This document shows positions 27,911 through 35,863 of a stretch of DNA of 64,000 nucleotides, piece by piece. How positions within the stretch are numbered: position 1 is the first letter of the stretch; each line of letters begins with the position of its first letter. The notes beneath the pieces are model-generated. The model saw only the letters and a list, made by a program, of their open reading frames with translations, ran no database searches and had not been told where the DNA came from. The DNA comes from Venatoribacter cucullus (GTDB lineage Bacteria > Pseudomonadota > Gammaproteobacteria > Pseudomonadales > Oceanobacteraceae), in assembly GCF_016132445.1 (NCBI RefSeq), contig NZ_CP046056.1:1674001-1738000 (forward strand). Direction: 5' to 3'. Made by a program: the position numbers and the translations under genes.

Positions 27911-27967
27911 GCTTAACGATTCGGTTCAGGGGCGGCGTAAGCCGTCCATTGCAACCGATTGTTATGT
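27911..27967 (-). other. attC of cassette C6
   Basis: CTTAACG at left and GTTATGT at right, about 57 bp, with arms ATTCGGTT/AACCGAT and GGCGGCGTAAGCCGTCC. The glycosyltransferase stop lies in the right box. Confidence 0.85.
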
Positions 27968-29212
27968 GACACCATTTTGATCAATGGGGTCAGGGTCTTT
28001 GAGAAGGTGTTCGATCTGATCGGCAGCCTCCATAGCTCCACCGCCGTCCCGCAGAGTGGCTGTGAGAGTGCGGGCCGACGCCGTATATGACGAGTCCTCC
28101 AGCAGTGCTTTGACGGTTGCCTGTAGTTCCGCTGCGCCGATCTTCTGCCCACTGAGGTGATGGCGCAGCACAAGACCCGCGCCACGATCTGCGACCGCCT
28201 GGCCAATAAGAAACTGTTCGACCTGCTGGGGAATCACGACCATCGGCACCCCGAAGTGGAGCCCCTCCATCACACTGTTCATTCCGCCGTGCGTCACGAA
28301 CACCGCCGCCTGCCGCAGTGCCGCGAGCAGGGGTACGACTGCCCGAACTACGATATTCGACGACGGCGACTGAAAATCGGCGGGGTCAGTGGCACGGCCG
28401 ACGACCAGCAGCACGTTCGCTGGCAGCGCCGCGAAGGCGTCGATGCAAGATCGGAAGAAGTCATCGCCGCCACTATGCAGTGTCCCTAGGGACACCACCA
28501 CCAAGGGAGTATCGTCCATGAGGAGGCGTTCGAGTTGCCCGTCGATCTCCTCGGTGCGTAGTGCGGTATCAATAGAAGGGCCGACGAAGCGGCTACTCGC
28601 ATCGCACCGGTCATCGGGAGATTGGATCCATGCAGGAATAGGGAAGATGGTTAAATCACCTCGGGTTGGGAACACCGGACTCGATGGCAGGAGGTCACGA
28701 CCGACGCTTTGCAGTAGCCGGCGTCGAGCGCCGAGGGTTCCCGGAAGAGAGGTCGCGGTCTCCCACACTACGGCGAGACGCTCGCGTGCAGTCAAACTGC
28801 GGAACACCGATGCATTGACGAGGATCGTGGTCATTAGAGAGATCGCCGGACGGCGCAGGCTGGTCGCGAGCATTCGGCCCCAAAGGGCGTTCGAGTCGAA
28901 CATGATAGCGTCCGGCGGGTCTTTCCGCAGTTCGGACTCCAGTAGCGGCAACAGCTTCCGTGTTGCCTCAAGCAGTCGCTGCACGACCTTAGCCGATCCG
29001 CCTTGAGCGTTTGCATCGGCAATTACGTTGGAGGAGATCGTGCCGTCCGGATAGGCGCGGAAGGTGGCCCCTATCTGCTCAGCAACTGTACGGAACTCCT
29101 CAGTGACGTAGAAGGTAACGTCGTTGCCGCGTCGGACCAGTTCACGGACCAACGGCACGCTGGGGTTGACGTGGCCGGCTGCTGGCATAGCGATCATAAC
29201 GATGCGGCTCAT
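27962..29212 (-). CDS. C6: MGT-family glycosyltransferase (macrolide glycosyltransferase-like)
   Basis: A 416-residue GT-B glycosyltransferase of the GT1 superfamily. The N-terminal domain opens with MIAMPAAGHVNPSVPLV, the acceptor-site pattern with a catalytic His. The C-terminal nucleotide-sugar site reads FVTHGGMNSVMEGLHFGV followed by PMVVIPQQVEQ. Members of this group glycosylate macrolides, flavonoids or polyketides, and some inactivate macrolides. The gene is visibly GC-richer than the cassettes around it, which points to a different donor. GGAG lies 7 bases before the ATG. It is the cassette next to the fossil attI'. Confidence 0.88.
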   Translation of the reverse strand: MSRIVMIAMPAAGHVNPSVPLVRELVRRGNDVTFYVTEEFRTVAEQIGATFRAYPDGTISSNVIADANAQGGSAKVVQRLLEATRKLLPLLESELRKDPPDAIMFDSNALWGRMLATSLRRPAISLMTTILVNASVFRSLTARERLAVVWETATSLPGTLGARRRLLQSVGRDLLPSSPVFPTRGDLTIFPIPAWIQSPDDRCDASSRFVGPSIDTALRTEEIDGQLERLLMDDTPLVVVSLGTLHSGGDDFFRSCIDAFAALPANVLLVVGRATDPADFQSPSSNIVVRAVVPLLAALRQAAVFVTHGGMNSVMEGLHFGVPMVVIPQQVEQFLIGQAVADRGAGLVLRHHLSGQKIGAAELQATVKALLEDSSYTASARTLTATLRDGGGAMEAADQIEHLLKDPDPIDQNGVT

Positions 29213-29268
29213 CGATATCTCCAGGCTAGGTGTTTTCTGTTTGAGAGTGAGTCAAAGGCTTTCGGTGG

Positions 29269-29306
29269 CATAACAGCTTATTCATAGGCATGCTCATTTT
29301 GTCTTT
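29269..29306 (-). other. Fossil attI' site of a second integron head
   Basis: CATAACAGCTTATTCATAGGCATGCTC matches CCTAACAGTTTATTCGTAGGCGTGCTC at the working attI (33831 onward) with a few changes, and stands at a similar distance from an intI start (302 versus 332 bases). It has no attC-type palindrome. The stretch from 29213 to 29573 holds this site, a repeated GCATGCT(C/A)ATTTTGTCTTT motif and the LexA box; otherwise it is AT-rich and without a gene. Confidence 0.75.
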
Positions 29307-29411
29307 CAGCATCCCTACCCTTTTATTTATTTAAGTGCATGATTCTGCCGCACTTTTTCCTTAACAGCAATAATAATTAACCGTGTAAACGTGCATGCTA
29401 ATTTTGTCTTT
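29288..29411. repeat. Direct repeats in fossil attI' region
   Basis: GCATGCTCATTTTGTCTTT at 29288-29306 and GCATGCTAATTTTGTCTTT at 29393-29411 match at 18 of 19 bases. Related motifs flank the working attI (GCGTGCTCGTTTACAC at 33851 and GCATGTACGTCTTTACAC at 34069). Integrase-binding direct repeats are known in attI sites; that these serve so is inference. Confidence 0.5.
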
Positions 29412-29543
29412 GGTTGTTGCTCATTAATTATTTACCAACCTATTTAACTTATTGTTTTAACTATCTATTTTTATTTTAACGCTGAATATCTAAGCATTCT
29501 TAAATTACAAAACGTGCAATTTTATAAATACGGTCTAAATTAA

Positions 29544-29559
29544 CTGTATAGATAGCCAG
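29544..29559. promoter_or_regulatory. LexA (SOS) box of fossil intI'
   Basis: CTG-N10-CAG (CTGTATAGATAGCCAG), 15 bases before the ATG of the intI' remnant, the same arrangement as at the intact intI. LexA control of integron integrases is established for Vibrio and mobile integrons. Confidence 0.7.
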
Positions 29560-29573
29560 TATTGGTGTGCACT

Positions 29574-29681
29574 ATGACTAAGAGTCCTTTTCTATTAAGT
29601 ATTAGCCAAGATATGCGGCAAAAGGGTTACTCCTTACGCACTGAGAAAACATACATTTTTTGGATTAAGAAAGCCAAATAG
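29574..29681 (+). pseudogene. Truncated integron integrase remnant (intI')
   Basis: A 35-codon frame, too short for usual gene lists, that encodes the N-terminal start of an integron integrase. It reads MTKSPFLLSISQDMRQKG followed by YSLRTEKTYIFWIK; 20 of its first 32 residues equal the intact IntI at 34166. Homology ends at WIK and the frame stops two to three codons later. The core-binding remainder and the whole catalytic domain are absent. It is a different integrase from the working one, not a recent copy. It lies in the same orientation, with its own LexA box and attI'. Confidence 0.85.
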
Positions 29682-29776
29682 AAAAGGATGACAGAGTCTC
29701 AAAAAGAAAATCCACAATACGTGGGAGATCATACTCTTATTGCTGACAGAGGACAGTTTACTTTGAGCTAAATATA
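29682..29776. other. Non-integrase filler between intI' remnant and attC of C5
   Basis: About 95 AT-rich bases with no similarity I can see to the rest of intI. A 27-codon frame at 29689-29772 (+) exists but has no proper ribosome site and no known likeness. The stretch ends exactly at the crossover point of the C5 attC. Confidence 0.5.
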
Positions 29777-29847
29777 CATAACGCCGCGCTCTGCGGCAAA
29801 TTTGGAGCGCAGCGGAAAATTTGTCCGACAGCAGCGCCTTGTTATAA
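29777..29847 (-). other. attC of cassette C5
   Basis: ATAACGCCGCGCTCTGCGG at left and GTTATAA at right; 71 bp, close relative of the C15 and C17 sites. The SLATT gene stops in the right box. Confidence 0.92.
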
Positions 29848-33830: not shown

Positions 33831-33866
33831 GCCTAACAGTTTATTCGTAGGCGTGCTCGTTTACAC
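33831..33866 (-). other. Working attI site
   Basis: Junction between cassette C1 and the integrase side: GTTAGGC on the - strand (GCCTAAC at 33831-33837) with no attC palindrome to its right. The 33825-34165 stretch has no gene; it carries attI, a repeated GCGTGCTCGTTTACAC / GCATGTACGTCTTTACAC motif, candidate promoters and the LexA box. Confidence 0.85.
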
Positions 33867-34127: not shown

Positions 34128-34147
34128 TACTGTTTTTATATACAGCA
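34128..34147. promoter_or_regulatory. LexA (SOS) box upstream of intI
   Basis: TACTGTTTTTATATACAGCA: CTG-N10-CAG, 19 bases before the ATG of intI, close to the gammaproteobacterial LexA consensus. It implies that cassette shuffling is induced by DNA damage, as known for Vibrio and class 1 integrons. Confidence 0.85.
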
Positions 34148-34165: not shown

Positions 34166-35134
34166 ATGGGTAAAAGCCCTTTCCTTAATGATGTTCGTAC
34201 GTTCATGCGCCTGCACGGTATGAGCCTCCGTACCGAGCATACTTACATTTACTGGATCAAGGACTTCATCCGCTTTCATCGTCTCAAACATCCCGCCACG
34301 CTGGGCGGCGATGATGTCATGGCCTATTTGGGTTACCTTGCTGCAAAGCGTAACGTCGCGATTAATACGCAGAAAATCGCACTGAATGCTCTGGCATTTT
34401 TATACAACCAGTTTTTGCAACAGCCATTAGGAGACCTGGATTTTACCTTTGCAACCAAGCCGAGACGCTTACCCGAAGTGCTCAGCACGTCAGAGGTTGC
34501 CGCTATTCTGCGCGAGCTTTCAGGGCGCGATAAGCTGATTTTTTCTCTTTTGTTTGGTTCTGGTCTTCGTATTACTGAATGCCTGCGCTTACGCGTGAAA
34601 GACTTTAATTTTTCCCATGGAACGTTGACGGTTCATGATGGCAAAGGTGCTAAAGACCGTGTCACCATTCTGAGCCCATTATTACGCCCAGCCATTGAAG
34701 CAGAGATTCATAACGTACTTCGATTACAGGAATCTGATAACCAACAGGGCATCGGCCCTTCTATTCCGGGGGTACTGGCCAAAAAGTATCCTTCTGCTTA
34801 TCGGCAAGCTGCCTGGATGTTTTTGTTTCCATCGTCCGGTTTTTGTAATCACCCGATCACTGGCACTCTTTGCCGACACCATTTGCATGATTCTGTACCG
34901 CGAAAAGCACTTCGTCAGGCGGTTATTAAATCCGGACTTACCAACAAGCGTATAACCTGTCACACCTTCCGGCACAGTTTCGCTACTGAACTGCTCCGCT
35001 CTGGTCGTGACATTCGCACCGTGCAGGAGTTGCTGGGGCATTTTGATGTGAAAACAACCCAGATTTATACCCATGTTATTGGTCAACACTTTGCTGGCAC
35101 ATCCAGCCCGCTGGATGCCATTACATCACCCTGA
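34166..35134 (+). CDS. intI: Integron integrase (tyrosine recombinase)
   Basis: A 322-residue tyrosine recombinase. The N-terminal core-binding domain starts MGKSPFLNDVRTFMRLHGMS. The catalytic domain has the first Arg in GSGLRITECLRLR, the His-x-x-Arg pair in CHTFRHSFAT, and the nucleophilic Tyr in TTQIYTHV. Between them lies the insertion special to integron integrases (KKYPSAYRQAAWMFLFPSS ... HHLHDS), which separates IntI from XerC/XerD. AAGTAGG precedes the ATG by 7 bases. It faces the cassette array, the classical layout. All catalytic residues are present, so it should be active. Confidence 0.96.
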   Translation: MGKSPFLNDVRTFMRLHGMSLRTEHTYIYWIKDFIRFHRLKHPATLGGDDVMAYLGYLAAKRNVAINTQKIALNALAFLYNQFLQQPLGDLDFTFATKPRRLPEVLSTSEVAAILRELSGRDKLIFSLLFGSGLRITECLRLRVKDFNFSHGTLTVHDGKGAKDRVTILSPLLRPAIEAEIHNVLRLQESDNQQGIGPSIPGVLAKKYPSAYRQAAWMFLFPSSGFCNHPITGTLCRHHLHDSVPRKALRQAVIKSGLTNKRITCHTFRHSFATELLRSGRDIRTVQELLGHFDVKTTQIYTHVIGQHFAGTSSPLDAITSP

Positions 35135-35644: not shown

Positions 35645-35863
35645 ATGTCTGTTACCGATCATGCTCAACACATTACTCATCTGCAGGCTGAGCTGGCGCG
35701 GCTGGACGATGAAATCAACCGCATTGCCAATAAGCTGAATAATGCCGGGTTTATTAACCGGGTGCCGGCGGCGTTAATCGAAAAGGAACAGAAGAAAATG
35801 GCCGGGTTTCAGAAACTGCAGGCGCAGATTCAGCAAAAAATCTCACAGGCCAATTCTGACTAA
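35645..35863 (+). CDS. Free-standing ValS C-terminal arm-like protein
   Basis: A 72-residue coiled-coil protein that resembles the C-terminal tRNA-binding arm of valyl-tRNA synthetase. Its stretch NRIANKLNNAGFINRVPAAL aligns with [20 protein letters not shown] of the valS product at 18421, and IEKEQKKMAGF with [11 protein letters not shown]. It is a diverged relative, not a recent copy. It has its own strong AAGGAGG 7 bases before the ATG, so it should be made as a separate protein. Possible roles are tRNA binding or a relic of an island that carried a valS 3' end. It lies on the far side of the integron from valS. Confidence 0.8.
   Translation: MSVTDHAQHITHLQAELARLDDEINRIANKLNNAGFINRVPAALIEKEQKKMAGFQKLQAQIQQKISQANSD

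Follow-up and report, generated by a model that had tools for sequence, protein, structure and literature searches.

Clusters of attC sites and single attC sites that lack an integrase (CALINs and SALINs, respectively) are, in the available portions of the literature, described as widespread and as mobilisable in trans by a functional IntI, and the origins proposed there for integrase-free clusters are off-target insertion, loss of intI and rearrangement. In Xanthomonas, the accessible text of one report places CALINs at seven chromosomal loci (PMC12444791). The available part of the description of IntegronFinder 2.0 states that attI sites outside class 1 are poorly described and are not detected, such that attI heads standing apart from an intI would be missed by this program; and within the accessible text of the open-access full-text literature we found no description of attI heads on CALINs. 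Judged against that body of text, CALINs and their mobilisation in trans are known, and the attI heads that we report on such clusters appear to be new.

Large chromosomal integrons are reported to prefer the restrictive orientation, in which the attC bottom strand lies on the leading-strand template, and experimental inversion of the Vibrio cholerae array led to more excision and to the selection of inactive integrases or of re-inversion, as given in the open part of that report (PMC11023631). Cassettes of the Delta-attI type, found in class 1 and class 2 integrons, are described in the available sections of another report as a resistance gene followed by 14 to ~238 nt of attI, one of them with a complete attI1 (PMC12901181).

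The window, by which we mean the whole 64-kb stretch of DNA that was analysed, carries one intact integron. Its integrase gene (intI, 34166..35134, plus strand, 322 aa) scores 369.4 bits against the NCBIfam integron integrase model TIGR02249, above the curated cut-off of 265 bits, and is the only full-length IntI match in the genome; its attI core was recognised by pattern (33834..33858, plus strand), and a CTG-N10-CAG box read from the sequence lies 5' of the gene (34130..34145, plus strand). The array consists of 20 attC sites (C1 to C20, 18927..33452), all on the minus strand, which were located with a home-made arm-profile scorer at a threshold of 26. The profile was trained on attC from the window, and the scores of attC within the window are therefore not independent: at 26 or above, the scorer returned the 20 minus-strand sites of the array, with two of these exceeding 26 on the opposite strand as well, and its highest value in the rest of the window was 24.7. 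Background at threshold 26 amounted to 5 matches in 188 kb (the platform sides of the 32 orphan loci described below), and shuffled sequence gave 11.3 matches per 64 kb at 21 or above. A fold-based finder had been tried and set aside, its first version recovering only 2 of the array sites and its second finding more. Among the cassettes, C15 and C17 (20918-21468 and 21876-22426) are 99.8% identical copies with one cassette between them, and C5 (29842-31381, minus strand) holds two genes, for a CD-NTase whose matches to CBASS cyclase models fall below the cut-offs and for a SLATT_4-domain protein that scores above its cut-off, a gene pair that is predicted to form a CBASS-like defence pair within one cassette. 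At 2.83 Mb in a single contig, the genome to which the window belongs (G000) falls well short of its eight relatives in the genus (3.9-4.4 Mb).

Between C5 and C6, the earlier note had recognised the fossil head of a second integron on the strength of an attI-like site, a CTG-N10-CAG box and the start of an integrase gene, and all three are present in the sequence. An attI' core matched by pattern (29271..29295, plus strand), with the gene of C6 to its left on the minus strand, is followed by a leader (29296..29573, plus strand), by the box (29544..29559, plus strand), whose relative place is that of the box at 34130-34145, and by an intI' remnant of 35 codons and a stop (29574..29681, plus strand), of which residues 1-32 are homologous to IntI. 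Both boxes are what we take to be LexA-like motifs. When up to 3 mismatches were allowed across the 64 kb, the attI core pattern had exactly two matches, at 29272 and 33835 (chance expectation 0.00), and the core of the remnant differs from that at 33835-33858 at 3 of 24 positions; it also shares 29 nt without a difference with an orphan attI in another genome of the genus (G007:C24). The stretch 29271-29573 fits an attI site in that it has a core with a crossover triplet beside cassettes and is homologous to the attI-leaders of other integrons. The peptide encoded at 29574-29678 aligns with residues 1-32 of the window's IntI at 20 of 32 identical positions (63%, E 7e-12) and, besides the intact IntI, nothing else in the 2.83-Mb genome matched IntI when E values as high as 10 were admitted. 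Against TIGR02249 it reaches 20.5 bits (E 2.5e-4) over positions 1-28 of 315 in the profile, below the curated cut-off of 265 bits, and thus represents a fragment and not a working IntI. The segment 29271-29678 is a real, truncated head of a second integron of another lineage.

The two borders of the segment that contains this head are integrase crossover points in the same orientation. Homology to intI stops at WIK, as had been noted before, and some 100 bp then lead to an attC crossover (29682..29781, plus strand); a search of plasmids with them gave no match. The border itself proves to be the R' crossover of the C5 attC (29776..29847, minus strand). No attC was detected between 29272 and 29776 by the scorer that found the 20 array sites; in formal terms, the segment therefore makes up the opening ~0.5 kb of cassette C6 rather than separating two cassettes. 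Measured between crossovers, C6 (27917..29782, minus strand) therefore comprises the intI'-attI' front and a gene for a macrolide-family glycosyltransferase (CDS 27962-29212; TIGR01426, above cut-off), and its own attC lies at 27911..27967 (minus strand). A promoter scan of the remnant gave 1 candidate against a shuffle mean of 2.1, a count no higher than in shuffles, and the intact leader gave 4 candidates against 1.4 in shuffles, two of them pointing towards the cassettes; an argument from promoters is thus not supported, and a cassette promoter can only be presumed.

The nearest relatives of the remnant are found on plasmids. In a translated plasmid search, the closest was an IntI on E. coli plasmids (91% over 33 residues), whose gene is itself split in two pieces. 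This value, set against the 63% identity with the window's own IntI, led us to reject a duplication of the resident integron and bears out the earlier view of a different lineage. At the nucleotide level, 404 nt running from attI' into the start of intI' align at 72.5% with E. coli pRHB16-C13_3; the alignment with Pasteurella multocida pJR1 covers 365 nt (71.5%) and that with the Salmonella IncQ1 plasmid pSAL4567-2 covers 135 nt (79%). No intI is annotated on the latter two, both of which are small mobilisable plasmids: pJR1 retains ~19 codons of intI before unrelated sequence and pSAL4567-2 has part of the leader only, and the first cassette genes behind these heads are catB2 and estX, respectively. 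Because the closest relatives are on plasmids and the best match to the remnant among 390 genomes of the same order reached only 69%, the head derives from a mobile-type integron. A search of complete E. coli genomes with the attI'-leader returned no match. In a DNA search across 44 genomes of the family, the attI core was met at other places, two of them in the window's own genome. Outside that genome, nothing matched beyond this core (29-38 nt), except that two genomes also matched over 34 nt at the start of intI, such that the remnant was not encountered as a normal part of unrelated single cassettes.

Sites resembling attI but standing apart from a full intI are not peculiar to this array. 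A pattern search found 43 attI-core sites in nine of nine genomes of the genus (Thalassolituus), and none with a reversed-pattern control. Beyond the remnant, the window's own genome has 4 more places with a core but no full intI, and none of the 8 other genomes of the genus lacks such cores. Besides the two sites of the window, 37 loci were examined (4 of the 43 sites falling outside this set), and on their platform sides homology to IntI was full in 5, truncated in 2 and absent in 30, the last figure including a locus (L077) with only 607 bp available for inspection. The cassette sides of the 32 orphan loci contain 66 attC sites on the right strand, distributed over 27 loci, as against a single site on the wrong strand; the platform sides, of about equal length, contain 5 attC, on either strand, in 4 loci. 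Two or more cassette-side attC, the composition of a CALIN, were found at 17 of the 32 loci, a single one (SALIN-like) at 10 and none at 5; at L070 and L080, the sole attC match is borderline and lies 3.7-4.8 kb off.

The orphan platforms are homologous to the main attI-intI leader for up to ~330 bp, as far as the position at which intI would be expected to start, and over much shorter distances in some. A large group of platforms has the leader running straight into the 3' flank of intI, the gene itself being deleted, and some members of this group have additional deletions in the leader. The crossover triplet is missing from 4 of the 32 orphan attI. A repeat motif, which was picked after the leaders had been viewed, occurs 48 times in 37 leaders as against 0.4 times in shuffles. 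In one genome (G002), IntI belongs to another lineage (73%) and its own attI falls outside the search pattern, such that the orphans of G002 were not necessarily served by this enzyme. Near the far end of many arrays, 0.7-4 kb from attI on the cassette side, the repeat CCCCGCTTTAACGGACACC and its neighbours are found (L065, L069, L070, L072, L074, L076 and others), and in several of these loci the repeat splits the last attC into halves; the window's genome contains no copy of it with up to 1 mismatch. We considered whether such a repeat at the far array ends might delimit a mobile element; in the loci scanned it is mostly cassette-side, and a two-ended element was thus not shown.

A scan of public genomes extended the pattern beyond the genus, with at least 117 attI matches, partly in the same genomes. 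Among the matches listed that had 1.5 kb available on the platform side (n = 92), a full intI (at least 200 residues) was present in 12, a partial one in 7 and none in 73; and among those listed that had room on both sides (n = 52), attC were found only on the cassette side in 43, only on the other side in 0, on both in 2 and on neither in 7. Counts of attI and intI were made for 10 genomes picked from the attI matches listed, which are not a random sample. There were 7 attI and 1 intI in the complete genome of Thaumasiovibrio occultus, 7 attI and 1 intI with one in-frame stop in Shewanella mangrovi, and 5 attI and 1 intI in Marinomonas flavescens; Oceanobacter mangrovi has 9 attI and a truncated intI, Parathalassolituus penaei has 6 attI and a partial intI, and between 1 and 3 attI were counted in Vibrio litoralis and in each of three genomes of the Halomonas group. 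In Oceanobacter kriegii, 5 attI were counted but IntI had no match at E 1e-12, which means that a share of the ports must lie idle. In other genomes too, truncations of intI (L183, L090, L079 and L118) end early, after 32-54 codons, as though something within the first codons or the leader had been retained.

We compared 16 pairs of orthologous orphan loci, partly overlapping, from different genomes with common chromosomal surroundings. Wherever one or both crossovers of a pair were intact (15 of 15 pairs), the first 300 bp on the cassette side showed no homology at all; the platform side was homologous over 150-300 bp in 13 of these pairs and over 44 and 32 bp in the remaining two. In the one pair with both crossovers lost (AATTAG for TAACAG; a control with n = 1), 300 of 300 bp were homologous. 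Homology stops at attI and resumes past the array in 5 of the 15 pairs, and since both outer flanks are conserved in these, the cassettes between them were exchanged. Several of the orthologous pairs with differing cassettes carry the same intI-deleted platform in both genomes, which implies that the cassettes changed after intI was lost, barring a spread of the deletion from copy to copy; homologous exchange among platforms might make it hard to tell which of the two events came first. One locus (L069, at G002:1315k) combines the left flank seen at G001:C3/G007:C7 with the right flank seen at G001:C17 and appears to be a recombinant of two platforms, by which the chromosome was rearranged.

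The attI core also changes less than half as fast as the leader, with differences at 15 of 250 and 325 of 2356 positions, respectively (Fisher p 0.0002; 10 overlapping pairs, 2 of them not from the same locus). Direct similarity among 98 cassettes was limited to 4 pairs, only 2 of which show clear traffic between ports. One cassette is common to two orphan loci of G001 at 96%, and a stretch adjoining it is 96% identical to a different locus of G004; the other similar pairs are from two G003 loci (84%) and from C15 and C17 inside the window.

Orphan and intI-bearing arrays differ in their orientation to replication. In G000 and G002, dnaA stands at the very start of the sequence, and GC skew follows it. 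The attC bottom strand lies on the lagging-strand template (the permissive orientation) in 27 of 31 orphan arrays, a sum of 24 of 28 assigned by flanking skew over 14-40 kb and of 3 of 3 further G002 sites assigned by position and 7-kb local skew; arrays bearing an intI are restrictive in 6 of 7 cases and permissive in 1 (Fisher p 0.0005 for orphan versus intI arrays). Counted by distinct locus, with groups set by hand, 17 of 21 orphans are permissive (p 0.007); merging another two pairs of linked loci turns this into 16 of 19 (p 0.004). The restrictive exceptions are thus 4 of the 21 distinct orphan loci; conversely, the main array of G003 is permissive. Two permissive calls are weak (bootstrap 0.65 and 0.89), and in two cases, G004:C19 and the main array of G007, the skew over 7 kb was opposite in sign to that over the longer stretch, which was the one used. 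The second intI locus of G003, the G005 intI locus and L077 (contig too short) are left out of the count, and five of the seven intI-array positions probably share one ancestral place. The main array of the window has its attC bottom strand on the leading-strand template, the orientation by which a sedentary chromosomal integron (SCI) is characterised. Because the inversion experiment in V. cholerae indicates that an intI beside a permissive array is costly, permissive platforms may have lost their own intI for this reason.

How the second head came to lie inside the array can be explained in two ways. The earlier note had proposed that two arrays were joined, an old one (C6 to C20) headed by intI' and a new one (C1 to C5) headed by intI, and had given as an alternative that intI'-attI' was carried in as the front of C6. 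A joining of arrays would account for a head that stands before C6 in the correct order and orientation and whose intI' is of a different lineage; against it, attC types are common to both sides of the remnant. The best attC partners span the junction (C5-C15 at 0.89 and C4-C20 at 0.83, with C1 and C2 closest to one another), and similarity within minus similarity between the groups on either side is -0.005 (p 0.55). Nor does the head match the cassette that it would have headed: its GC content is 0.33 and that of the remainder of C6 is 0.60, whole cassettes of the array ranging from 0.36 to 0.53. Moreover, it seems that the main array has been resident as a single unit. The window's integron lies between valS and a small ORF (35645-35863) that is 36% identical to the C-terminus of ValS, and because a similar ValS-like ORF adjoins the main intI of four relatives (L061, L073, L083 and L075), the place of the integron seems conserved; valS itself follows past the array both in the window and in G001, and was not seen in the examined stretches of the other three relatives. 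Shared attC types and crossovers of like orientation at both ends favour entry as the front of C6, which fits better than the fusion, and we consider the latter distinctly unlikely.

With regard to the orphan arrays, they might be inert fossils of full integrons whose cassette differences predate the loss of intI or reflect homologous exchange of whole loci. Truncated N-termini of intI (19-54 codons) recur, genomes with multiple attI exist without a full intI match (none in O. kriegii, a truncated one in O. mangrovi and a partial one in Parathalassolituus), and the triplet losses in 4 of 32 orphan attI are equally in keeping with decay. Inert loci, however, would not readily yield the 5 pairs in which homology halts at attI and returns past the array, nor a core that changes at less than half the rate of its leader, nor leaders that keep a repeat motif (48 versus 0.4 in shuffles, albeit a motif chosen post hoc); and the intI-deleted platform is common to orthologous loci of several species with differing cassettes. 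On balance, we judge a purely fossil origin unlikely. Insertion of the attG type into non-classical targets, with any resemblance to attI incidental, is described in the accessible literature and does yield intI-less cassette clusters, but many orphans are homologous over 270-330 bp from the core to the start of intI, often continuing into its 3' flank, and the reversed pattern found nothing, such that this origin is extremely improbable.

We therefore return to the reading that we consider probable, namely, that the remnant is a truncated plasmid-type integron head carried in as the front of C6 and that orphan attI sites are ports served by a single IntI in trans. A foreign head would have entered the chromosomal array as the front end of C6 through integrase-mediated recombination. 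IntI from the main locus, probably induced by the SOS response to judge from its CTG-N10-CAG box, would act at all attI ports, where attC bottom strands would fold on the lagging-strand template; cassettes would be excised at attC and could re-enter at any attI, and the main array, in the restrictive orientation, would store them. To the observed anatomy, distribution, turnover and orientation of the orphan platforms, this scheme adds the action of IntI in trans and the expression of cassettes from orphan leaders, both of which we infer, and it supposes that orphan attI recombine with attC under IntI, for which the orthologous pairs offer indirect evidence. Its broader form, to which we give somewhat better than even chances, is that of distributed integrons: one intI beside a restrictive storage array serves 1-8 (usually 3-6) intI-less, permissive ports with short, fast-changing arrays, the ports having lost their own intI as costly.

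Should this be true, part of the CALINs now catalogued would be working ports, and a genome could express the first cassettes of several arrays at once with one integrase setting the rate of exchange. If many clusters carry a working attI, integrons would be multi-port systems and not single platforms. The opposite orientations of storage and port arrays provide a testable reason for the loss of intI from ports, and the same logic may extend to mobile integrons, in that orphan heads of the remnant's lineage precede catB2 and estX on plasmids.

Compared with described systems, the orphan loci resemble CALINs and SALINs in being attC cassettes away from any intI, but they differ in having a recognisable attI head with a long leader, usually several per genome, and in occupying conserved places at which the cassettes change. 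The CALINs of Xanthomonas likewise lack intI, occupy places that are fairly well conserved and stand away from the one resident intI; in the accessible text, however, an attI head is not mentioned for them (PMC12444791). The segment 29271-29782 is akin to Delta-attI-type cassettes in that a cassette-like unit ends in an attI-derived site instead of an attC, and its crossover borders fit such a unit; unlike them, it consists of a whole attI', a leader and the start of intI placed before a cassette, and its two crossovers enclose no known gene in complete form. And the main array of the window, with one intI, an attI, 20 cassettes and the replication orientation that the available descriptions give as preferred by SCIs, is like an SCI, whereas the orphan arrays have no intI and are mostly in the opposite, permissive orientation.
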